This document shows positions 1,894 to 50,833 of a stretch of DNA of 64,000 nt, piece by piece (the first letter of the stretch is position 1; every line of letters starts with the position of its first letter). The notes under the pieces are model-generated. The model saw only the letters and a program-made list of their open reading frames with translations. It did not search any database and was not told the origin of the DNA. The stretch comes from Stutzerimonas xanthomarina DSM 18231 (GTDB lineage: Bacteria > Pseudomonadota > Gammaproteobacteria > Pseudomonadales > Pseudomonadaceae), in assembly GCF_900129835.1 (NCBI RefSeq), contig NZ_FQXA01000002.1, forward strand, positions 620,001-684,000, read 5' to 3'. The position numbers and the translations under genes are program-made.

Positions 1894-3543
1894 ATGTCCG
1901 AGAACCTTATCGAGGTCCGCGATCTGGCGGTCGAGTTCGTCACCAATGGCCAGACCCAGCGCGTAGTAACGGGCGTGAGCTTCGATATCCGCAAGGGCCA
2001 GACGTTGGCACTGGTTGGTGAGAGCGGTTCGGGCAAGTCCGTCACAGCGCACTCAATCCTGCGTCTGCTGCCCTACCCCCTCGCGCAGCACCCGGCGGGC
2101 GAAATTCGCTATGCAGGCGAGGATTTACTCCAGGCGTCCGAGAAACGCATGCGCGGTATACGCGGAGACCGGATAGCCATGGTGTTTCAGGAGCCGATGA
2201 CCTCGCTCAACCCGCTGCATACCATCGGCAAGCAGATCAACGAAGTGCTGCAGATCCACAAGGGCCTCAACGGTAAGGCCGCCACCGCGCGCACCCTCGA
2301 ATTGCTTGAGCTGGTTGGGATACCCGAGCCCACCAAGCGGATCCGGGCCTATCCTCATGAACTCTCCGGCGGTCAGCGCCAGCGGGTGGTAATCGCCATG
2401 GCGCTGGCGAACGAACCCGAGCTGCTGATTGCCGACGAACCGACAACGGCGCTGGACGTAACAGTGCAGTTGAAAATACTCGAGCTGCTCAAGGAGCTCC
2501 AAGCCCGCCTGGGCATGGCCCTGCTGCTGATCAGCCACGACCTGAACCTCGTCCGCCGAATCGCTCACCATGTATGTGTCATGAAGAGTGGTTCTGTCGT
2601 CGAACAAGCACCTTGCGAGGAATTGTTCCGATCACCGCAGCATCCCTATACACGGGAACTGCTTGGGGCAGAGCCTAGCGGCGGGCCGGTACCGGTTGAG
2701 GCGTCTTCGCCGACACTGCTAGAAGTGAATGATCTGCGGGTCTGGTTTCCTATCAAGAAGGGACTTTTCAGACACACCGTCGACCATATCAAGGCAGTCG
2801 ACGGCGTCACGTTCAACCTGCCAAAAGGTCAGACGCTGGGCATTGTCGGTGAAAGCGGCTCGGGAAAATCGACGCTGGGTTTGGCCATTCTGCGTCTGAT
2901 TTCGAGCAGCGGCGGAATCCGTTTTCACAACCAGGCGCTTGAGACCATGTCGCAACGGGCGGTGCGTCCATTGCGTCGGCAAATGCAAGTCGTTTTTCAG
3001 GATCCTTTCGGCAGCCTGAGCCCCCGTATGTCGGTGGGGCAGATCATCGGAGAAGGGCTTAGTATCCATGGCATGGGCTCCGCGAAGGAACAAGCACAAG
3101 CAATCATCGATGCGCTGGTCGAGGTTGGGCTCGACCCGGATAGCCGGCACCGCTATCCCCACGAGTTTTCCGGAGGCCAGCGGCAGCGAATCGCCATAGC
3201 CCGGGCGCTGGTCCTCAAGCCTGATCTGATTCTGCTTGATGAACCGACCTCGGCACTGGATCGAACTGTACAGCGGCAAGTAGTGGAGCTACTGCGCTCA
3301 CTCCAGGCCAAGTACAACCTGACCTACCTGTTCATCAGCCATGACCTGGCGGTGGTTCGGGCGTTGAGCCATCAGATGATGGTGGTCAAGCAAGGCAAAG
3401 TCGTAGAACAAGGAATGGCGGAGGCTATCTTCGCCGCTCCGCAACATCCATACACACAGCAGTTGCTGGAATCGGCCTTCATGATCCCAGCCACTGATGA
3501 ACAACCAGAAGAGGGAAAAGCACATGGGTTTTCTTACCGGTAA
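1894..3543 (+). CDS. yejF: Oligopeptide ABC transporter ATP-binding protein YejF (two fused ATPase domains)
   Basis: Energising subunit of the Yej importer, 549 aa, with two complete ABC domains in one chain. The first (about 5-255) has Walker A GESGSGKS at 42-49, signature LSGGQRQR and Walker [14 protein letters not shown]. The second (about 273-525) repeats [16 protein letters not shown] and [13 protein letters not shown]. Each domain ends with the oligopeptide-transporter motif HPYTREL or HPYTQQL. This double-domain form distinguishes YejF from separate OppD/OppF or DppD/DppF. The start is one base after the yejE stop. The last 20 bases overlap fabI in another frame. High confidence. Confidence 0.94.
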
Positions 3544-4318
3544 GCGCATATTGATCGTCGGCGTCGCCAGCAAATTGTCGATTGCCTCCGGGATCGCCGC
3601 GGCCATGCACCGTGAAGGCGCCGAACTGGCTTTCACCTATCAGAACGAGAAGCTCAAGGGCCGCGTCGAGGAGTTCGCCGCAGGTTGGGGCTCGGGCCCT
3701 GAGCTGTGCTTCCCCTGCGACGTCGCCAGCGACGACGAGATCGTCAAGGTTTTCGAGGCGCTCGGCAAGAAGTGGGACGGTTTGGACGGTATCGTCCACT
3801 CGGTAGGTTTCGCCCCGGGTGATCAACTCGACGGCGACTTCACTGAAGTTACCACCCGTGAAGGCTTCCGCATCGCTCATGACATCAGCGCATACAGCCT
3901 CGTTGCGCTGGCCAAGGCCGGGCGCCCGATGATGAAGGGCCGTAATGGAAGCATCCTGACGCTTTCCTATCTCGGTGCTGAGCGCACCATGCCCAACTAC
4001 AACGTTATGGGTATGGCCAAGGCCAGTCTCGAGGCAGGCGTTCGCTATCTCGCCGGCAGCCTGGGCGCTGAGGGTACTCGCGTCAACGCGGTGTCTGCTG
4101 GCCCTATCCGTACGCTGGCAGCCTCCGGGATCAAGAGCTTCCGCAAGATGCTGGCGGCCAACGAGAAGCAAACGCCGCTGCGCCGCAATGTGACCATTGA
4201 CGAGGTCGGCAATGCTGGCGCCTTCCTTTGCTCAGATCTGGCATCCGGTATCAGCGGCGAGATTCTCTACGTCGATGGCGGCTTTAACACTACCGCGATG
4301 GGTGCGATAGAAGACTGA
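3524..4318 (+). CDS. fabI: Enoyl-[acyl-carrier-protein] reductase FabI
   Basis: NADH-dependent enoyl-ACP reductase for the last step of each fatty-acid elongation cycle; cytosolic. The 264-aa protein starting MGFLTGKR matches the remembered Pseudomonas FabI along its length. The nucleotide site is [13 protein letters not shown], and the catalytic residues are Tyr149, Tyr159 and Lys166 (YNVMGMAK). I chose the ATG at 3524 because GAGGGA lies just upstream and FabI begins there; an in-frame start 27 bases earlier would add a foreign tail. The gene overlaps the yejF end by 20 bp and is followed by a strong bidirectional terminator. FabI is the target of triclosan-type inhibitors. Confidence 0.96.
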
Positions 4319-15492: not shown

Positions 15493-15969
15493 ATGAACAA
15501 TCGACAGGACGCGCGCCTTGAGCGCGTGTTGGCTACCCTGGCGCTGGTAATCATCAGCCTGATCAGCCTGGCCAATGTGATGGTGCGCTACTTCACCGAT
15601 GCATCATTCGCCTTTACCGAAGAAATCTCCGTTTTTCTCCTTGTGATTCTCACCTTCGCCGGCGCATCGGTGGCCATGCGCAGCAACCGTCACATCCGCA
15701 TCGGATTTGCCGAGCGGATGTTTCCGCGCCTGCGTACACCGCTGATCCTGCTGCAGTGGCTGGCCAGCGTATTAGTGCTCGGCATGGTCATCTGGTACGG
15801 CGGGCAATTTGCGCTGGAGGAACGCCAATGGGAGTCCGAATCTCCCGGCCTGGGACTGCCGAACTGGTGGTATGTGGTCTGGCTGCCATTGCTGGCGTTG
15901 TTGATGGGCATACGCCTGACTCAGATGACGATCGACCGGCTGCGCGGGAGGCTCACCGATGAGCCCTGA
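15493..15969 (+). CDS. dctQ: TRAP transporter small permease (DctQ family)
   Basis: Small membrane subunit of the TRAP transporter, 158 aa, with four hydrophobic segments (about 14-32, 45-62, 83-103, 120-140). Family landmarks are NVMVRYFTDASFAFTEEISVFL and AMRSNRHIRIG. GAGGAA precedes the ATG. The end overlaps dctM by 11 bases, so translation of the two is probably coupled. Confidence 0.88.
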   Translation: MNNRQDARLERVLATLALVIISLISLANVMVRYFTDASFAFTEEISVFLLVILTFAGASVAMRSNRHIRIGFAERMFPRLRTPLILLQWLASVLVLGMVIWYGGQFALEERQWESESPGLGLPNWWYVVWLPLLALLMGIRLTQMTIDRLRGRLTDEP

Positions 15970-38145: not shown

Positions 38146-39669
38146 ATGTTTCTTGGTATCGATTGCGGCACCCAGGGCACCAAAGCATTGCTACTCGACG
38201 CCTCTAGCGGGCGTGTCCTGGGCCAGGGTGCGGCGAGCCATACGCTGATAAGCGGCCCAAACGGACGCCGCGAGCAGGATACCGAGCAGTGGACCGCCGC
38301 TTTCGTCGCCGCGACTGCAGCCGCGCTGAATGCCGCCGGTGTCGATGGCAGCGGCGTGCTGGGCATCGGTGTTTCAGGGCAACAGCATGGCCTCGTGACA
38401 CTCGACGACAAAGGACAGGTGCTTCGTCCGGCCAAACTGTGGTGCGACACGGAATCCGCCGCTGAAAATCAACGGCTGCTCGATTGGTTGGGCGGCGAAC
38501 AGGGCTCGCTGCAACGCCTCGGCGTGGTCATTGCCCCTGGCTACACGGTGTCAAAACTGCTGTGGATGAAGGAGCAGCATGCTGAGCGCTTCGAGCGCAT
38601 CGCTCACATCTTGTTGCCCCATGACTACCTCAACTACTGGCTGACCGGACGCTGTGCAAGTGAGTATGGCGATGCCGCAGGGACGGGCTATTTCAACGTC
38701 CGCTCCCGCCAATGGGACAACGCCATACTGCGCTATATCGATCCCACGGGCCGGCTCGAAGCGGCGCTGCCCGAGCTGATCGAGCCTCATCAGCCGGTCG
38801 GGCGGATCCGTCCTGAACTGGCCGCCACGTTAGGGCTGAATCCCCATGCACTCGTCGCGAGCGGTGGCGGCGACAACATGATGGGCGCGATCGGCACAGG
38901 CAATATTTCCCCCGGCGCGATCACGATGAGCCTCGGGACATCCGGAACTCTCTATGCGTTTGCTAACGAAGCCCGTATCAGCCCGCAGCCCTCAGTCGCG
39001 ACCTTCTGTTCATCCAGCGGCGGCTGGCTGCCGCTGATCTGCACGATGAACCTGACCAATGCGAACGGTGCTATCCGCGATCTGCTACAGCTCGATCTCG
39101 ATCAGTTCAATGCATTGGTGGCGCAATCTCCGATCGGGGCCGAAGGCGTAACCATGCTGCCATTTCTGAATGGCGAACGCGTCCCCGCCCTGCCCCAGGC
39201 CACGGCCAGCCTGCACGGCCTGACCGCCGACAACCTGACCCGAGCCAACCTCTGCCGCGCCGTCGTCGAGGGCGTGACCTTCGGCCTACGTTACGGATTG
39301 GATTTGCTGCGTGAGAGTGGGATACGTAGCGAGCGGATACAGCTGATCGGCGGCGGTGCGAACAATCCGCTGTGGCGGCAAATCGTCGCCGACATGATGG
39401 CCACGCCCGTGGTCTGCACGTCTCATAGCGAGGCTGCGGCGCTTGGGGGTGCGATCCAGGCGGCGTGGTGTCACGCCAGAGAAAGCGATTCTCAAGCCAG
39501 CCTTATCGAGCTTTGCGACCGTTGCGTCAGTCTTGACGAAACAACCGCGGTCGACCCTGCCCCCAACGCCGTTCACGCCTATGAACAGGCCTACCGGCGC
39601 TACCGGGACCTGGTCGGCACCACCTACGGTCAACGCACGCCGCCGGATCTGACAACAGTCGCGCCGTGA
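38146..39669 (+). CDS. mtlY: Xylulokinase MtlY
   Basis: FGGY-family sugar kinase, 507 aa, expected to phosphorylate D-xylulose formed from D-arabinitol. The N-terminal phosphate motif is DCGTQGTKALLLD, with SGQQHGLV (substrate contact) and the C-terminal ATP-binding block IGGGANNPLWRQIVADMM. ACGGAGG precedes the ATG, 11 bases after mtlD. Last gene of this operon, followed by a REP pair and a terminator. The fructokinase expected here in other Pseudomonas is instead upstream of mtlR. Confidence 0.92.
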   Translation: MFLGIDCGTQGTKALLLDASSGRVLGQGAASHTLISGPNGRREQDTEQWTAAFVAATAAALNAAGVDGSGVLGIGVSGQQHGLVTLDDKGQVLRPAKLWCDTESAAENQRLLDWLGGEQGSLQRLGVVIAPGYTVSKLLWMKEQHAERFERIAHILLPHDYLNYWLTGRCASEYGDAAGTGYFNVRSRQWDNAILRYIDPTGRLEAALPELIEPHQPVGRIRPELAATLGLNPHALVASGGGDNMMGAIGTGNISPGAITMSLGTSGTLYAFANEARISPQPSVATFCSSSGGWLPLICTMNLTNANGAIRDLLQLDLDQFNALVAQSPIGAEGVTMLPFLNGERVPALPQATASLHGLTADNLTRANLCRAVVEGVTFGLRYGLDLLRESGIRSERIQLIGGGANNPLWRQIVADMMATPVVCTSHSEAAALGGAIQAAWCHARESDSQASLIELCDRCVSLDETTAVDPAPNAVHAYEQAYRRYRDLVGTTYGQRTPPDLTTVAP

Positions 39670-42331: not shown

Positions 42332-43351
42332 TCATGCGCTTTCGCGCATCACCACTTCAAACCCCACATCAATGCGCCGTTGCGGTGGCGACTCGCCGCG
42401 CATCAGGCTCAGCAGCATCTGTCCAGCCAGCTTGCCAATCTCACCACGGGTGGTGCGCACAGTGGTCAGTGCCGGGTGCATCCAGGCGGCCGCTGGCAGG
42501 TCGTTGAACCCGGCGACCGCCAGCCGTTCGGGCACAGCCAAATTCAGCTGGCGAGCACGAAATAGCGCACCCAACGCCAGGTCGTCGTTGTTGAAGAAGA
42601 TCGCATCGATCTCTGGATGCTGCGCCAGTAACCGGTCGAGCAACTCAGCGCCCAGCCCGATGGATGACACCTGCGGTGTGAGCAACTCAAGCGCAGCATC
42701 GTATCGCGAGGCGCCGCGCATGACCTGGCGATAACCTTCAGCACGTTGCAGCGTCCGTGGATCGAGCTGCGCGGCCGCAAACGCGATGTTGCGGTAGCCG
42801 CGTTCGAGTAGCTTGCGGGTCATGGCCGCGCCGGCTTCCAACTGGGAAAAACCGACGCAATACTCCTCGTCGGCATCGCTCAGCTCCATCAGCGTCACGA
42901 TCGGACTGGTGTAGCTGCCCAGCACTTCGCGCGCGGCATCGCTGCGCTCGAAGCCGGTGACCAGCAGTCCCGCCGGCTGATGCGCCAGGTAGGCGCGCAA
43001 AAGGCGCTCGTCCTCTTCGGGATGGTAATGGCTGACGCCGATCATCAGCTCGTAGCCCGCCGGCATCAGCACGCGCTGAATGGCTTCGACGGTGTCGACG
43101 AACACCGCGTTCGATAACGAGGGGATAATTACTGCGATCAGGTTCGAGCGTGCGCTCGCCAGATTCCGCGCCGCCGTATGCGGGACGTAACCCAAGGCCT
43201 TGACCGCCGCCATCACCCGCTCGCGCAGGGCGTCCGATACCCGCTCGGGTTGCGACAGCGCACGCGAGGCGGACATCAGTGAACAACCGGCACTGCGAGC
43301 CACATCGGACAACGTGGCCCGCTCAAGCGAACGGCGACGGCGAGAGCTCAT
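42332..43351 (-). CDS. gntR: LacI-family regulator of gluconate use (GntR-like)
   Basis: Repressor of 339 aa. The N-terminal LacI helix-turn-helix reads TLSDVARSAGCSLMSASRAL, and a periplasmic-binding-protein-like effector domain fills about 70-335 (NLIAVIIPSLSNAVF, DAIFFNNDDLALGALF, GFNDLPAA). I start at 43351 (MSSRRRRSLERATL); the frame reaches 43414 without homology. It is downstream of the gluconate TRAP genes on the same strand, and a TAGCGCT operator lies before the first gene of that set. The role as gluconate repressor is inferred from family and context. Confidence 0.85.
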   Translation of the reverse strand: MSSRRRRSLERATLSDVARSAGCSLMSASRALSQPERVSDALRERVMAAVKALGYVPHTAARNLASARSNLIAVIIPSLSNAVFVDTVEAIQRVLMPAGYELMIGVSHYHPEEDERLLRAYLAHQPAGLLVTGFERSDAAREVLGSYTSPIVTLMELSDADEEYCVGFSQLEAGAAMTRKLLERGYRNIAFAAAQLDPRTLQRAEGYRQVMRGASRYDAALELLTPQVSSIGLGAELLDRLLAQHPEIDAIFFNNDDLALGALFRARQLNLAVPERLAVAGFNDLPAAAWMHPALTTVRTTRGEIGKLAGQMLLSLMRGESPPQRRIDVGFEVVMRESA

Positions 43352-43417
43352 GGCGGGATCCAGCGGCGAAGGGGGCGGAGATTCTATACGGGAAGACGCC
43401 CCGAAGCAGGCCACGTA

Positions 43418-45867: not shown

Positions 45868-47085
45868 TCAATCGGCCGTTACGTTGGCTTCGGCGATGGG
45901 TAACGGCGGATGTCGACGCCATACATTGACCAGCTGGATCAACGCCAGAACCGCAAGCGCAACCATGCTGGCGGCGACCGGAACCATCGCCACGGCCAGC
46001 GGATAACCCACCACAGGGCTGTTGATGGTCCAGCCGAATTGCATCTGATTCCATCCGCCCATTGCGGCCAATGCACTGGCTACCGCGACCATGATCCAAC
46101 TGACCGAATCCACCAGCCGACGAAACAGACGCGGAAAGCGGTCGCGGATCATGCTGAACGCCATCAGCTCGCCTCGGCGCATGCTCGAAGCCACACCAAC
46201 GAACACCAGCCAGACGAAGGCCAGCCTCGAAAGCTCTTCTGCGCCGGTCCAACCCGTACCGAACGCATAACGCAGGACCACGCTGCTGAACACCACGATG
46301 ACCATGGAGGCCAGCAGCGCTGCCATCAGCCAATCGGTAATCCGGTCGAAGCCCTGGGCGAACTTACCGCCATAGATCGGCTGGGTGGTCAGCTCGGCGC
46401 CCGTCAGCTCGACGTGCTCGACGCCTGCCGCAGTGTCGGCCTGGGTAGCGCGCTGAACGCCGGGCTTGCCGTCGCGCTGGCCGCCGCCCTTGTTAGCGCT
46501 ATCAAGCGGCGCCGCGGAAAGGTCCTCCTTGGCGTTGATCGCCAGACCGCCATCCTGATTCATCCAGGTGACGATCTCATCCAGCACCTGCTCGCGCGGC
46601 TGGCTGGCGTCAACCACCAGTACATGTGGCTCGCCTGCCGGCGATTCGAGCGTTGCGAACTGGCTGTCCACCAGCGAAATCGGCATGAAATGACCGGCCC
46701 GCCCGCCAACGCGCTGGATCGCCGTGTCGTAATCAATGGAAAGATGCGCAAAGCACAAACCAGGCACGGCATCGCGTAGCAGCTCGCGGTAACGGCGCTT
46801 CAGGGCAGAACAGGCGAGAACGAAGCTGACGTCTTCATCGATAGCGCGCTGCATTTCAACGACGAGTTTCTGCAGCCACTCGACGCGGTCGGCATCCGAT
46901 AACGGCGTGCCGGCACGCATGCGCGCAACATTTTCTTCAGGGTGGAAATGATCGGCTTCGATGTGTCGAAAGCCCAGCGCATCGGCTACGGCATGGCTGG
47001 TTTCGGTCTTGCCCGAACCACTGACGCCCATGACCACCAATGCGCGGCGATTTGCGGGAAATTCGCTGTGGGAGTGGTAATCCAC
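45868..47085 (-). CDS. Gluconokinase fused to a TRAP small permease (GntK-DctQ)
   Basis: Single open frame of 405 aa joining two proteins. Residues about 14-177 are a GntK-type gluconokinase: P-loop GVSGSGKT at 20-27, EADHFHPEENVARMRAGTPL, ACSALKRRYRELLR and HFMPISLVDSQFATLE. Residues about 178-240 are a polar linker. Residues about 245-395 are a DctQ small TRAP permease with four hydrophobic helices (RITDWLMAALLASMVIVVF, VVLRYAFGTGWTGAEELSR). The protein would phosphorylate gluconate at the membrane next to its own importer. I start at the GTG at 47085, with GGAG seven bases upstream. No stop separates the halves; an internal start making free DctQ cannot be excluded. Confidence 0.88.
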   Translation of the reverse strand: MDYHSHSEFPANRRALVVMGVSGSGKTETSHAVADALGFRHIEADHFHPEENVARMRAGTPLSDADRVEWLQKLVVEMQRAIDEDVSFVLACSALKRRYRELLRDAVPGLCFAHLSIDYDTAIQRVGGRAGHFMPISLVDSQFATLESPAGEPHVLVVDASQPREQVLDEIVTWMNQDGGLAINAKEDLSAAPLDSANKGGGQRDGKPGVQRATQADTAAGVEHVELTGAELTTQPIYGGKFAQGFDRITDWLMAALLASMVIVVFSSVVLRYAFGTGWTGAEELSRLAFVWLVFVGVASSMRRGELMAFSMIRDRFPRLFRRLVDSVSWIMVAVASALAAMGGWNQMQFGWTINSPVVGYPLAVAMVPVAASMVALAVLALIQLVNVWRRHPPLPIAEANVTAD

Positions 47086-47133
47086 TGTCGGTCTCCGGCG
47101 GCATCGTTGTGCCACATTATGTTTGTGGACCGG

Positions 47134-47149
47134 ATGGTAGCGCTAACAT
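47134..47149. promoter_or_regulatory. GntR-type operator upstream of the gluconokinase fusion
   Basis: ATGGTAGCGCTAACAT is a near-perfect 16-bp palindrome (one mismatched pair) centred on TAGCGCT, the core I remember for Pseudomonas GntR operators. It lies 49 bases upstream of the fusion gene start and also upstream of the divergent ppiC. Confidence 0.7.
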
Positions 47150-48844: not shown

Positions 48845-50833
48845 GTGACTGACGATAGTCAAAACATACTGTTCGGCAACGGCGATGAACTGCCAAGTAA
48901 CCATTCCGCCAACCCTCACATCCAGGACGTTATCAACCAAGGCCGTCGCAAGGTCGTGGCGAGCGGAGCAGCCTTCGGTGCGCTTGCCTTTCTCGGCGGC
49001 CTGCCTTCGATAGCAGGAGCAGCCGAGCCGGCCAAGATCGGCAGTGGTCAGCCCTTTCAGCTTCGTAATCGCCTCCCCTTTGCTGCAGTGCCGGTAACCC
49101 GCGCCGACACCATCACCGTGCCCGCTGGTTTTTCCGCCAAGACGTTCATTCCGTGGGGCACGCCGATCTGCGGTAGCTACCCCGCCTTTCTGGAAGACGC
49201 CAGCAACAGTGCGGAAGACCAGGCTCAGCAGACCGGCATGCACCACGATGGCATGCACTTCTTCCCAATGGACGCGCGGTTCAAGGGCCGCAAAAGCGAC
49301 CACGGTCTGCTCGTACTGAATCACGAGTACATTGATGCCCCGCTGCTGCATCCCAGCGGCCCAACGGTGGTCAATGGCAAACGCGTGGATGCCGATGAAG
49401 TGCGCAAGGAGATCAACGCGCACGGTGTTTCGGTCGTTGAGGTACGCCGTGGTCCTCAGGGAGACTGGTCGGTATTGCCATCCGCTCGCAACCGCCGCAT
49501 AACCGGCGCGACACCGATGCATATCGAAGGTCCGGCTCGTGGCCATGAGCTGATGCAAACTCGCTACAGCCCGAGCGGTACGTCGACCCGCGGTACGCTG
49601 AACAACTGCTCGAATGGCTACACGCCATGGGGCACCTACCTGACATGCGAAGAAAACTGGGCGGGCTATTTCGCTGCGGACGACGCTGAATTGCCTCGCC
49701 ATCTGGAGCGCTACGGCCTTCGTTCAAGCGGGCGTTACGGCTGGGAGACCGTTCGCGGCGACGAATTCGAGCGTTTCGATGCGACCGCGACAGCCGCAGA
49801 CGCGCGAGCCGACTATCGTAACGAACCGAATACGTTTGGCTGGATTGTCGAAATCGACCCCTTCGACCCGGACTCCACTCCGGTCAAGCACACGGCCCTG
49901 GGCCGCTTTGGCCACGAAGGCCTGGTATTTGCGCCGACCAAACCGGGCTGGCCGCTCGTCTGCTACTCCGGCGACGATTCGCAGAACGAGTACATCTACA
50001 AATACATCAGCCGCGACAAGTACCGCCCACAGCGCAGCGATGGTCGGCTACTCGATGATGGCACCCTGTACGTTGCGCGTTTCAACCCGGACGGCAGTGG
50101 CGACTGGCTGGCGCTGGATATCGAAGACGCGGCCTTCCAGCAGGCATGCGCTGCAGCAAACGTCAGCTTTGCCGATCAGGGCGAAGTACTGATCAACACG
50201 CGTCTGGCAGCGGACGTCGTTGGCGCGACCAAAATGGACCGCCCTGAATGGGGCGCCGTCCATCCCGACACCGGCGAGGTGTATTTCACGCTCACCAACA
50301 ACAGCTCACGGCAAGAAGCCGACGCAGCCAACCCTCGCGCGCCAAACCCCACCGGACACATCATCCGTTGGCGTGAGGAAGGCAAGAATCAGGTTGGCAC
50401 TCGGTTTCAGTGGGACCTGTATCTGCTCGCCGGGCCGCAGAGCGATAGCCGAGACCCACGCGGTCGGCCGCTGACCGACGAAAACATCATGGCGAGCCCC
50501 GACGGACTCTGGTTCGACGAGGAAGGACGACTCTGGATCCAGACCGACATGAGCGGAAGCCAGCTCAGAAGTGGGCCGTTCGGCAACAATCAGATGCTGG
50601 TGTCGGACCCGAAGAGCGGTGAAACCAAGCGTTTCCTGGTCGGACCCAAGGGAGCCGAAGTGACCGGTATTACGGCGACTCCCGACTTCCGCACGCTGTT
50701 CGTGAATATCCAGCACCCAGGGGAAGGGTCCACGCCGACTGAGTACACCAGCACCTGGCCCGACGGCCCGGGTCGCAGGCCACGCTCGGCGACGGTGATC
50801 ATCACGCGTGATGACGGCAAGCGTATTCTCTAG
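48845..50833 (+). CDS. phoX: PhoX-family alkaline phosphatase (Tat-exported)
   Basis: Calcium/iron-dependent phosphatase releasing phosphate from organic esters, 662 aa. The N-terminus has a twin-arginine motif (RRKVVASG, Arg34-Arg35) and a hydrophobic stretch to about residue 60, consistent with Tat export to the periplasm. Family blocks include GMHHDGMHFFPMDARF, LVLNHEYIDAP, NNCSNGYTPWGTYLTCEENW (the Cys and Glu metal region) and SPDGLWFDEEGRLWIQTDM. The GTG start at 48845 has GGAG upstream. A PHO box 50 bases upstream predicts induction by phosphate starvation. High confidence. Confidence 0.93.
   Translation: MTDDSQNILFGNGDELPSNHSANPHIQDVINQGRRKVVASGAAFGALAFLGGLPSIAGAAEPAKIGSGQPFQLRNRLPFAAVPVTRADTITVPAGFSAKTFIPWGTPICGSYPAFLEDASNSAEDQAQQTGMHHDGMHFFPMDARFKGRKSDHGLLVLNHEYIDAPLLHPSGPTVVNGKRVDADEVRKEINAHGVSVVEVRRGPQGDWSVLPSARNRRITGATPMHIEGPARGHELMQTRYSPSGTSTRGTLNNCSNGYTPWGTYLTCEENWAGYFAADDAELPRHLERYGLRSSGRYGWETVRGDEFERFDATATAADARADYRNEPNTFGWIVEIDPFDPDSTPVKHTALGRFGHEGLVFAPTKPGWPLVCYSGDDSQNEYIYKYISRDKYRPQRSDGRLLDDGTLYVARFNPDGSGDWLALDIEDAAFQQACAAANVSFADQGEVLINTRLAADVVGATKMDRPEWGAVHPDTGEVYFTLTNNSSRQEADAANPRAPNPTGHIIRWREEGKNQVGTRFQWDLYLLAGPQSDSRDPRGRPLTDENIMASPDGLWFDEEGRLWIQTDMSGSQLRSGPFGNNQMLVSDPKSGETKRFLVGPKGAEVTGITATPDFRTLFVNIQHPGEGSTPTEYTSTWPDGPGRRPRSATVIITRDDGKRIL

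Follow-up and report, generated by a model that had tools for sequence, protein, structure and literature searches.

In TRAP transporters such as DctPQM and SiaPQM, and in the CxaP system of Advenella, the genes for DctP, the four-helix DctQ and DctM lie in a row. The TRAP fusion mentioned in PMC9971032 joins Q with M. Gluconokinases of the GntK/IdnK type, for example the E. coli enzyme (1knq), share a P-loop, conserved motifs and a fold. Intragenic auxiliary operators of LacI-family repressors are known from lac O2 in lacZ, the gal internal operator and E. coli gntT; in these, the first gene itself contains the second operator, which is at most a few hundred bp away from the first. The gntR/gntK-gntP systems of P. 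aeruginosa and P. plecoglossicida combine a LacI-type GntR with the core AGCGCT upstream of gntK and before the transporter gene. The GntR operator of P. aeruginosa is given as AC-N-AAG-N-TAGCGCT and its effectors as gluconate and 6-phosphogluconate (PMC5902321), and a DNase I footprint of P. plecoglossicida GntR is reported in the gntP promoter region, with gntP 100 bp downstream of gntK (PMC12195362).

Here we analysed a locus in a 64,000-nucleotide stretch of Stutzerimonas xanthomarina DSM 18231 (the window) that resembles all of these systems in part. Unlike the DctQ of DctPQM or SiaPQM, its DctQ carries an N-terminal enzyme domain, and unlike other GntK/IdnK-type kinases, its kinase is predicted to be tied to the membrane by its DctQ part. 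Other gluconokinase fusions that we saw have soluble enzyme partners (6-phosphogluconate dehydrogenase, 6-phosphogluconolactonase). The two Pseudomonas systems differ from the locus in using a GntP permease rather than a TRAP importer, in keeping the genes separate and in having the second operator between genes rather than in coding sequence. In contrast to lac O2, gal and gntT, the putative second operator of the window lies in the linker of a fusion protein, matching the position of an intergenic operator in relatives. The fusion is real and widespread in the family, and its parts are of known kind; the striking point is the putative GntR operator in the linker, which is new and which the preliminary description of this DNA had overlooked.

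The kinase-DctQ fusion and its operon

The frame of the fusion gene is open without interruption through 405 codons to its stop, with GGAG 7 nt 5' of the GTG start; a second GTG at 47115 would be a possible upstream extension. The preliminary description had read this frame as a complete GntK-type kinase, a polar linker of about 60 residues and a four-helix DctQ, and had named a stop or frameshift in the linker as what would overturn it. We found neither, and both domains score above curated cut-offs. The kinase half contains the P-loop GVSGSGKT and the motif HFMPISLVDSQ and matches the gluconokinases 4eun, 3t61 and 1knq by sequence and fold, which places it in the GntK/IdnK type; ATP-dependent phosphorylation of D-gluconate is its predicted activity.

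Table 1. Features of the fusion operon (window positions).
Feature	Position	Strand	Evidence or remark
Gluconokinase-DctQ fusion gene	45868..47085	-	405 aa from GTG 47085
GntK-type gluconokinase domain, residues 16-175	46561..47040	-	TIGR01313 177.7 bits, cut-off 113.75
Linker, residues 179-240, predicted disordered	46366..46551	-	pLDDT about 30
DctQ domain, residues 261-391, four membrane helices	45913..46305	-	PF04290 83.3 bits, cut-off 28.3
dctM, TRAP large permease, 425 aa	44547..45824	-	PF06808 402.1 bits; TIGR00786 439.8 bits
dctP, TRAP solute-binding protein, 338 aa	43466..44482	-	PF03480 324.4 bits
gntR, LacI-family gluconate repressor	42332..43414	-	NF052440 476.7 bits, cut-off 400
O1, putative promoter GntR operator, TGTTAGCGCTACCA (gene-sense)	47135..47148		centre about 56 nt 5' of GTG 47085
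O2, putative intragenic GntR operator, TGATAGCGCTAACA (gene-sense)	46491..46504		in linker

An AlphaFold2 model was computed for the single chain without DctM, from an alignment of the window protein and 77 relatives taken from the best 120 of the 393 proteins described below. The kinase was modelled with confidence (block means 77-94, residues 11-180) and DctQ as four long helices at medium confidence (mean pLDDT 70.6, pTM 0.46); the best solved matches of the model were again the three gluconokinases named above. The loop between TM2 and TM3 of the DctQ half contains 7 Lys/Arg and that between TM3 and TM4 none, which places the N-terminus, and hence the kinase, in the cytoplasm.

To count independent cases, frames with identical last 380 residues were taken once, which reduced 70 frames to 44 distinct fused genes. 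From 348 pairs with 80-98.5% identity (192 pairs in the case of the middle linker), pN/pS was 0.116 for the kinase and 0.097 for DctQ, indicating strong purifying selection on both halves, and 0.928 for the middle linker, indicating nearly neutral evolution. Between fixed reference points the linker spans 32-60 residues in the 44 genes. A frameshift, an assembly artefact or a sequencing error is ruled out by the 44 distinct genes and by the selection on both halves. At the linker end, L-T-x-x-P-I-Y (residues 232-238, window 46372-46392) is invariant in 44/44 fused genes and nearly invariant in 78 proteins, though it lies outside both domains; neither start codons nor the operator account for its conservation.

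As the preliminary description had stated, dctM, dctP and a repressor gene follow on the same strand. DctQ, DctM and DctP are encoded together with Pfam matches above cut-off for all three, and the predicted function of this DctPQM set is binding-protein-dependent, ion-driven uptake. By NF052440 the repressor is a LacI-family gluconate repressor rather than an HTH protein of the GntR family. Since the model begins at residue 28, the true gntR start is probably downstream of 43414. A GntR homologue was detected by tblastn in 28/29 named loci, the exception being a contig of just 4.4 kb. Elsewhere the window contains a second TRAP DctQ (15556-15945; eight DctQ matches genome-wide), a xylulokinase (38149-39468; TIGR01312, 575.4 bits) and, next to zapE, a 662-aa open frame (48845-50833) with no NCBIfam match at 1e-20.

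The preliminary description had proposed a search for the same two-domain architecture in other genomes, and the architecture proved common. Among 56 genomes of the genus, 45 carry the fusion, one has it split (G048) and 10 are without it, one of these (G022) being only 71% complete. A survey of 198 genomes of the family added at least 13 fused genomes in three other genera, among matches listed down to E about 5e-41, below which weaker fusions may have gone unseen. A protein search scored 8000 candidates and gave 393 proteins at E<=1e-3. The best 120 of the 393 each have a query coverage of 93% or more, and all carry DctQ. Their database labels are gluconokinase, 'Multifunctional fusion protein' and, once, TRAP transporter small permease subunit, so the fusion is already present in databases under such labels. 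Our full-text searches of the literature, in which open-access papers were covered and subscription papers mostly missing, found no paper describing a kinase-DctQ fusion.

In 293 genomes of the order and 369 of the class, no fusion outside the family was present among DctQ-half matches at E 1e-22, a threshold that would miss weaker or more distant fusions; the matches from outside the family numbered five in the order set (frames of 187-206 aa) and two in the class set. A 388-codon frame in G607 was rejected as a fusion, as it runs open upstream of dctQ with the kinase in another frame. The viral contigs searched held no relative. One metagenome contig of 5245 bases encodes a second kinase-DctQ fusion with a short linker (P0122, 342 aa), known from this single contig. 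In trees it falls outside the Pseudomonadaceae clade, yet the tests do not reject one clade for all (p-AU 0.247 for DctQ, 0.058 for the kinase); its independence of the Pseudomonadaceae fusion is not proven. Gluconokinase domains are elsewhere fused to 6-phosphogluconate dehydrogenase, 6-phosphogluconolactonase or ribose-5-phosphate isomerase (for example P0128, P0157, P0149), partners that were named from Pfam accessions and source names.

Operator-like sites at the promoter and in the linker

The 8-mer TAGCGCTA occurs twice in the window, just upstream of the fusion gene (O1) and inside the linker (O2), 644 bp apart in this genome. O1 presents the core TAGCGCT at the promoter, and together with the GntR equivalog in the operon this matches the LacI-type GntR regulon of Pseudomonas. 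O2 begins with the third base of codon 194, spans D195-S196-A197-N198 and ends with the first base of codon 199; the conserved linker motif D-S-A(N/T) coincides with it. Without mismatch, the 14-mer TGWTAGCGCTAMCA is found at exactly two places in the 4.31-Mb genome, namely O1 and O2; this pattern was written after both sites had been seen, and the evidential weight therefore lies on the conservation tests. The reversed pattern, used as a control, gave four hits in the genome at up to 1 mismatch.

The core is kept at O1 in 44/44 distinct fused genes and at O2 in 41/44, or 41/45 if one counts L132, a fused gene outside the 44 that has O1 and lacks O2. In 29 loci, mostly of 13 kb each and partly with the same genes as the 44, TAGCGCTA occurs only as O1 (29/29) or O2 (28/29). 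A third operator that we had considered at the start of dctP (1 mismatch) was dropped on this ground and in view of the reversed-pattern hits. The spacing of O1 and O2 in the 29 loci is 629-651 bp, with no helical phase kept, which speaks neither for nor against looping or a roadblock. Exact TAGCGCTA is absent from three loci (7-8 kb each) that lack gntR and the importer genes. In L073 the O2 core has one changed base, in a form allowed by the P. plecoglossicida consensus. Three fused lineages without O2 (L130, L131, L132) retain gntR, which indicates that O2 is not essential; L130 has only the weaker CAGCGCTG, nearer the kinase, in its place. A promoter scan found nothing at O1 or at O2. In L133 (G206, reverse complement, 1475-1501 and 2103-2118), extra AGCGCT cores lie beside O1 and O2 in a doubled arrangement.

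We then compared constraint on bases with constraint on residues, using for synonymous conservation, base bias and TTG excess a set thinned to 25 rows at 92% nucleotide identity. D-S-A showed the highest synonymous conservation among 105 three-codon windows (33.2 vs 18.6 for the next); the thinned rows are still related, and the p-values of this test are rankings within the gene, not probabilities. Ala197 is encoded by GCT in 23/24 thinned rows, against a GCT share of 12.7% among Ala codons, and this position tops 227 columns. Codon 194 encodes seven residue types, yet its third base is T in 42/44 genes, and codon 199 encodes six, yet its first base is A in 42/44. O2 thus lies in coding sequence and shows a constraint on DNA beyond that on protein, as expected of an intragenic LacI-family operator. 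Codon 50 (window 46936-46938) encodes at least five residue types, yet its third base is A in 36/44, a bias equal in strength to that of codon 194.

The conservation of O2 fits a constraint on DNA better than one on protein. The other reading, that D-S-A(N/T) is a protein motif and its likeness to a GntR operator is due to chance, could draw on the retention of each of D195, S196 and A197 in 90% or more of the 78 fusion proteins aligned and on codon 50, where base bias is strong without a known operator. We regard it as extremely improbable, as bases are fixed where residues are free, Ala197 uses an uncommon codon, the only two zero-mismatch sites of the genome both fall in the fusion gene unit, and no exact core remains where gntR is gone. 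GntR, the operon's own repressor, would bind at both O1 and O2.

Loci with separate genes and the origin of the fusion

We inspected 21 Pseudomonadaceae loci with a separate kinase and counted the 18 that had gntP in the fetched stretch. In 11 of the 18 gntK-gntP loci a core lies between the genes at no more than 1 mismatch, 5-32 nt after the gntK stop, and in 4 of these it is exact; 7/18 have no intergenic site within 1 mismatch. Shuffled sequences reached exact sites in 0-1/200 and one-mismatch sites in 5-11/200, and single one-mismatch sites are therefore weak evidence. In a twelfth locus, L128, the site departs from the core at two positions, yet it is similar to the gntP site of P. plecoglossicida. 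By this comparison, O2 is at the position where relatives with separate genes often carry a candidate GntR operator between gntK and gntP, which suggests that the fusion formed by translation through such a gap. The linker is probably a translated regulatory region.

The same TRAP operon also exists with gntK and dctQ as separate genes, which overlap by 4-7 nt in 4/5 cases measured. On Azospirillum plasmids, unfused gntK, dctQ, dctM and dctP follow a divergent LacI-type regulator with a gntK/dctQ overlap of 4 nt; on a third such plasmid the kinase was detected by tblastn, though missing from the gene table. G321, of the same order, and G607, of the same class, have gntK, dctQ and dctM with a divergent regulator and overlaps of 7 nt and 4 nt, respectively. 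G869 has the three genes in tandem and unfused, and a Comamonas plasmid has the same unfused operon with a 15-nt gap between gntK and dctQ and edd further downstream. In these unfused operons we found no exact core between both genes, exact cores being present only at or upstream of the kinase start, and G607 had no exact core within the 3.4 kb examined. An origin from a translated gap consequently needs an ancestor of the type gntK-gap-transporter.

Trees were built with 20/44 genes and six database fusions. The fused Pseudomonadaceae kinases form one clade that includes two free kinases and excludes P0122 (99/99 with 42 kinases; 100/98 with 56), and their DctQ halves likewise form one clade (100/99). 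The trees place the fused kinases clearly next to neither unfused type (GntP-type or TRAP-type), so that a sister group is not shown. Free kinases are found in three genomes, G007 (L087), G045 (L088) and G016 (L089), between zapE-like and LysR-like neighbours that look like those of the fused gene, so apparently at the same site, and dctQ, dctM, dctP and gntR were not found in the 7-8 kb around them. Two of the three nest inside the fused clade, with the alternative not rejected (p-AU 0.296); such free kinases within the clade show that the kinase can do without the tether. In the split locus L086 (G048:C1:266000-274000, positions 2639-3768) the halves are in different frames, and the kinase stop overlaps a TTG that opens the dctQ frame. 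This locus keeps both O1 and O2 and is either a natural split or a sequence error.

Cargo, tether and control

Gluconate is probably the cargo of the importer, since the fused kinase is the only GntK-type kinase in the whole genome, no GntP-family permease was found there, edd is clearly present (1035.5 bits) and DctP is near a sugar-acid binder. No FGGY gluconokinase above cut-off was found in the genome, the FGGY protein of the window scoring as xylulokinase. A GntP-family permease (E<=1e-40) is present in 13/45 and absent in 32/45 fused genomes of the genus, and is also missing from 5/10 fusion-less ones. The closest solved relative of DctP is 7bbr (E 1.3e-102), which we take to be CxaP. 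CxaP binds several sugars with KD of 1.9-8.0 uM (PMC11668362), and its reported ligands are xylonic, fuconic, galactonic and gluconic acid (PMC12076931).

That the nearest solved binder accepts several sugar acids (PMC12076931), and that 7bbr was solved with 2-keto-3-deoxygluconate (PMC11668362), would also suit another aldonate or keto-acid as cargo, such as galactonate, xylonate or 2-keto-3-deoxygluconate, with a shifted kinase specificity. This is unlikely, though to be taken seriously, given that the kinase scores above the gluconokinase model and the repressor above the P. aeruginosa GntR model, and that edd is in the genome and also close downstream of the sister operon in Comamonas. Whether the halves are made together is a second question. 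They could be produced separately by an internal promoter at O2, an internal start or both, or by a protease that cuts the linker, and the preliminary description had thought an internal start for free DctQ possible. This genome offers no ordinary start codon for it: Met254, already within membrane helix 1, is the first in-frame ATG, GTG or TTG after residue 181. Codon 181 itself is a CTG preceded at 7 nt by AGGA, and codon 232 is CTG without a Shine-Dalgarno match. For some relatives it holds up better: codon 232 is TTG in 20/44 genes, one of which (L061) has GAGG 8 nt upstream, and in L042, L043 and L044 the position corresponding to codon 181 is TTG, again with AGGA 7 nt before it. Separate production is also in line with O2 occupying the place of the gntP operator in Pseudomonas and with G048, where the dctQ frame is open from the TTG at codon 232. 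A conserved internal start at codon 232 was not found, however, the 44 genes having CTG (22), TTG (20), TTA (1) and CTC (1), of which the last two cannot start; the TTG excess after thinning is weak (8/25, p 0.052), and the promoter scan was negative at O2, though at O1 too. We consider separate halves quite improbable, a little more so than another cargo.

The preliminary description had further proposed that the fusion couples TRAP import to phosphorylation in a form of vectorial metabolism, in which the kinase would take gluconate directly from the DctQM exit. A cargo kinase fused to a transporter subunit, conserved over four genera and placed on the cytoplasmic side by loop charges, could be read in favour of such coupling. 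Our analysis gives it no support, as no feature of the sequence would oblige import to proceed with phosphorylation in the manner of PTS-like group translocation, and we judge it very unlikely: a linker of 32-60 residues, nearly neutral in its middle and predicted to be disordered in the single-chain model without DctM, keeps no fixed geometry, free kinases of the same type persist in three genomes, and the operon exists unfused in other proteobacteria. The variable, nearly neutral linker is more easily reconciled with a loose tether than with channelling, and a tether that gives one kinase per importer is the modest reading of the fusion.

We therefore favour, as likely though not certain, the reading in which the operon encodes a TRAP importer with a kinase tethered to DctQ, repressed by GntR at O1 and O2, with O2 a former operator of a gene gap that has been kept. 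In this arrangement, periplasmic gluconate would be captured by DctP and imported by DctQM. The small membrane subunit would carry the only GntK-type gluconokinase of the cell on a flexible tether at its cytoplasmic N-terminus, and the kinase, with ATP, would convert gluconate to 6-phosphogluconate for Edd. The fusion would provide one kinase per importer and hold it at the entry point, but would impose no dependence of transport on phosphorylation. The operon's own GntR would repress at the promoter and in the linker, sites proposed from their conservation, and gluconate or 6-phosphogluconate would release it, as reported for P. aeruginosa GntR. When the kinase stop was lost, the regulatory gap would have become coding sequence with the operator retained, leaving a linker that is both tether and operator.

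A more specific version goes further, and we offer it tentatively, at somewhat less than an even chance. The same 14-bp stretch would be part of the kinase tether and an auxiliary GntR operator that acts by looping to O1 or by blocking elongation, so that importer and kinase are dosed together, and the fusion would have arisen when a repressor-controlled gap was translated.

If this version is true, a regulatory site became a protein linker and is still regulatory. The locus would be a natural example of one DNA stretch under both protein and operator constraint, and a concrete case in which neighbouring genes may have fused through a regulatory region and remained under its control. For a direct test of what tethering the first catabolic enzyme to its TRAP importer is worth, nature provides controls: the unfused operon elsewhere, a relative whose two halves are read in separate frames, and others that retain the kinase alone.
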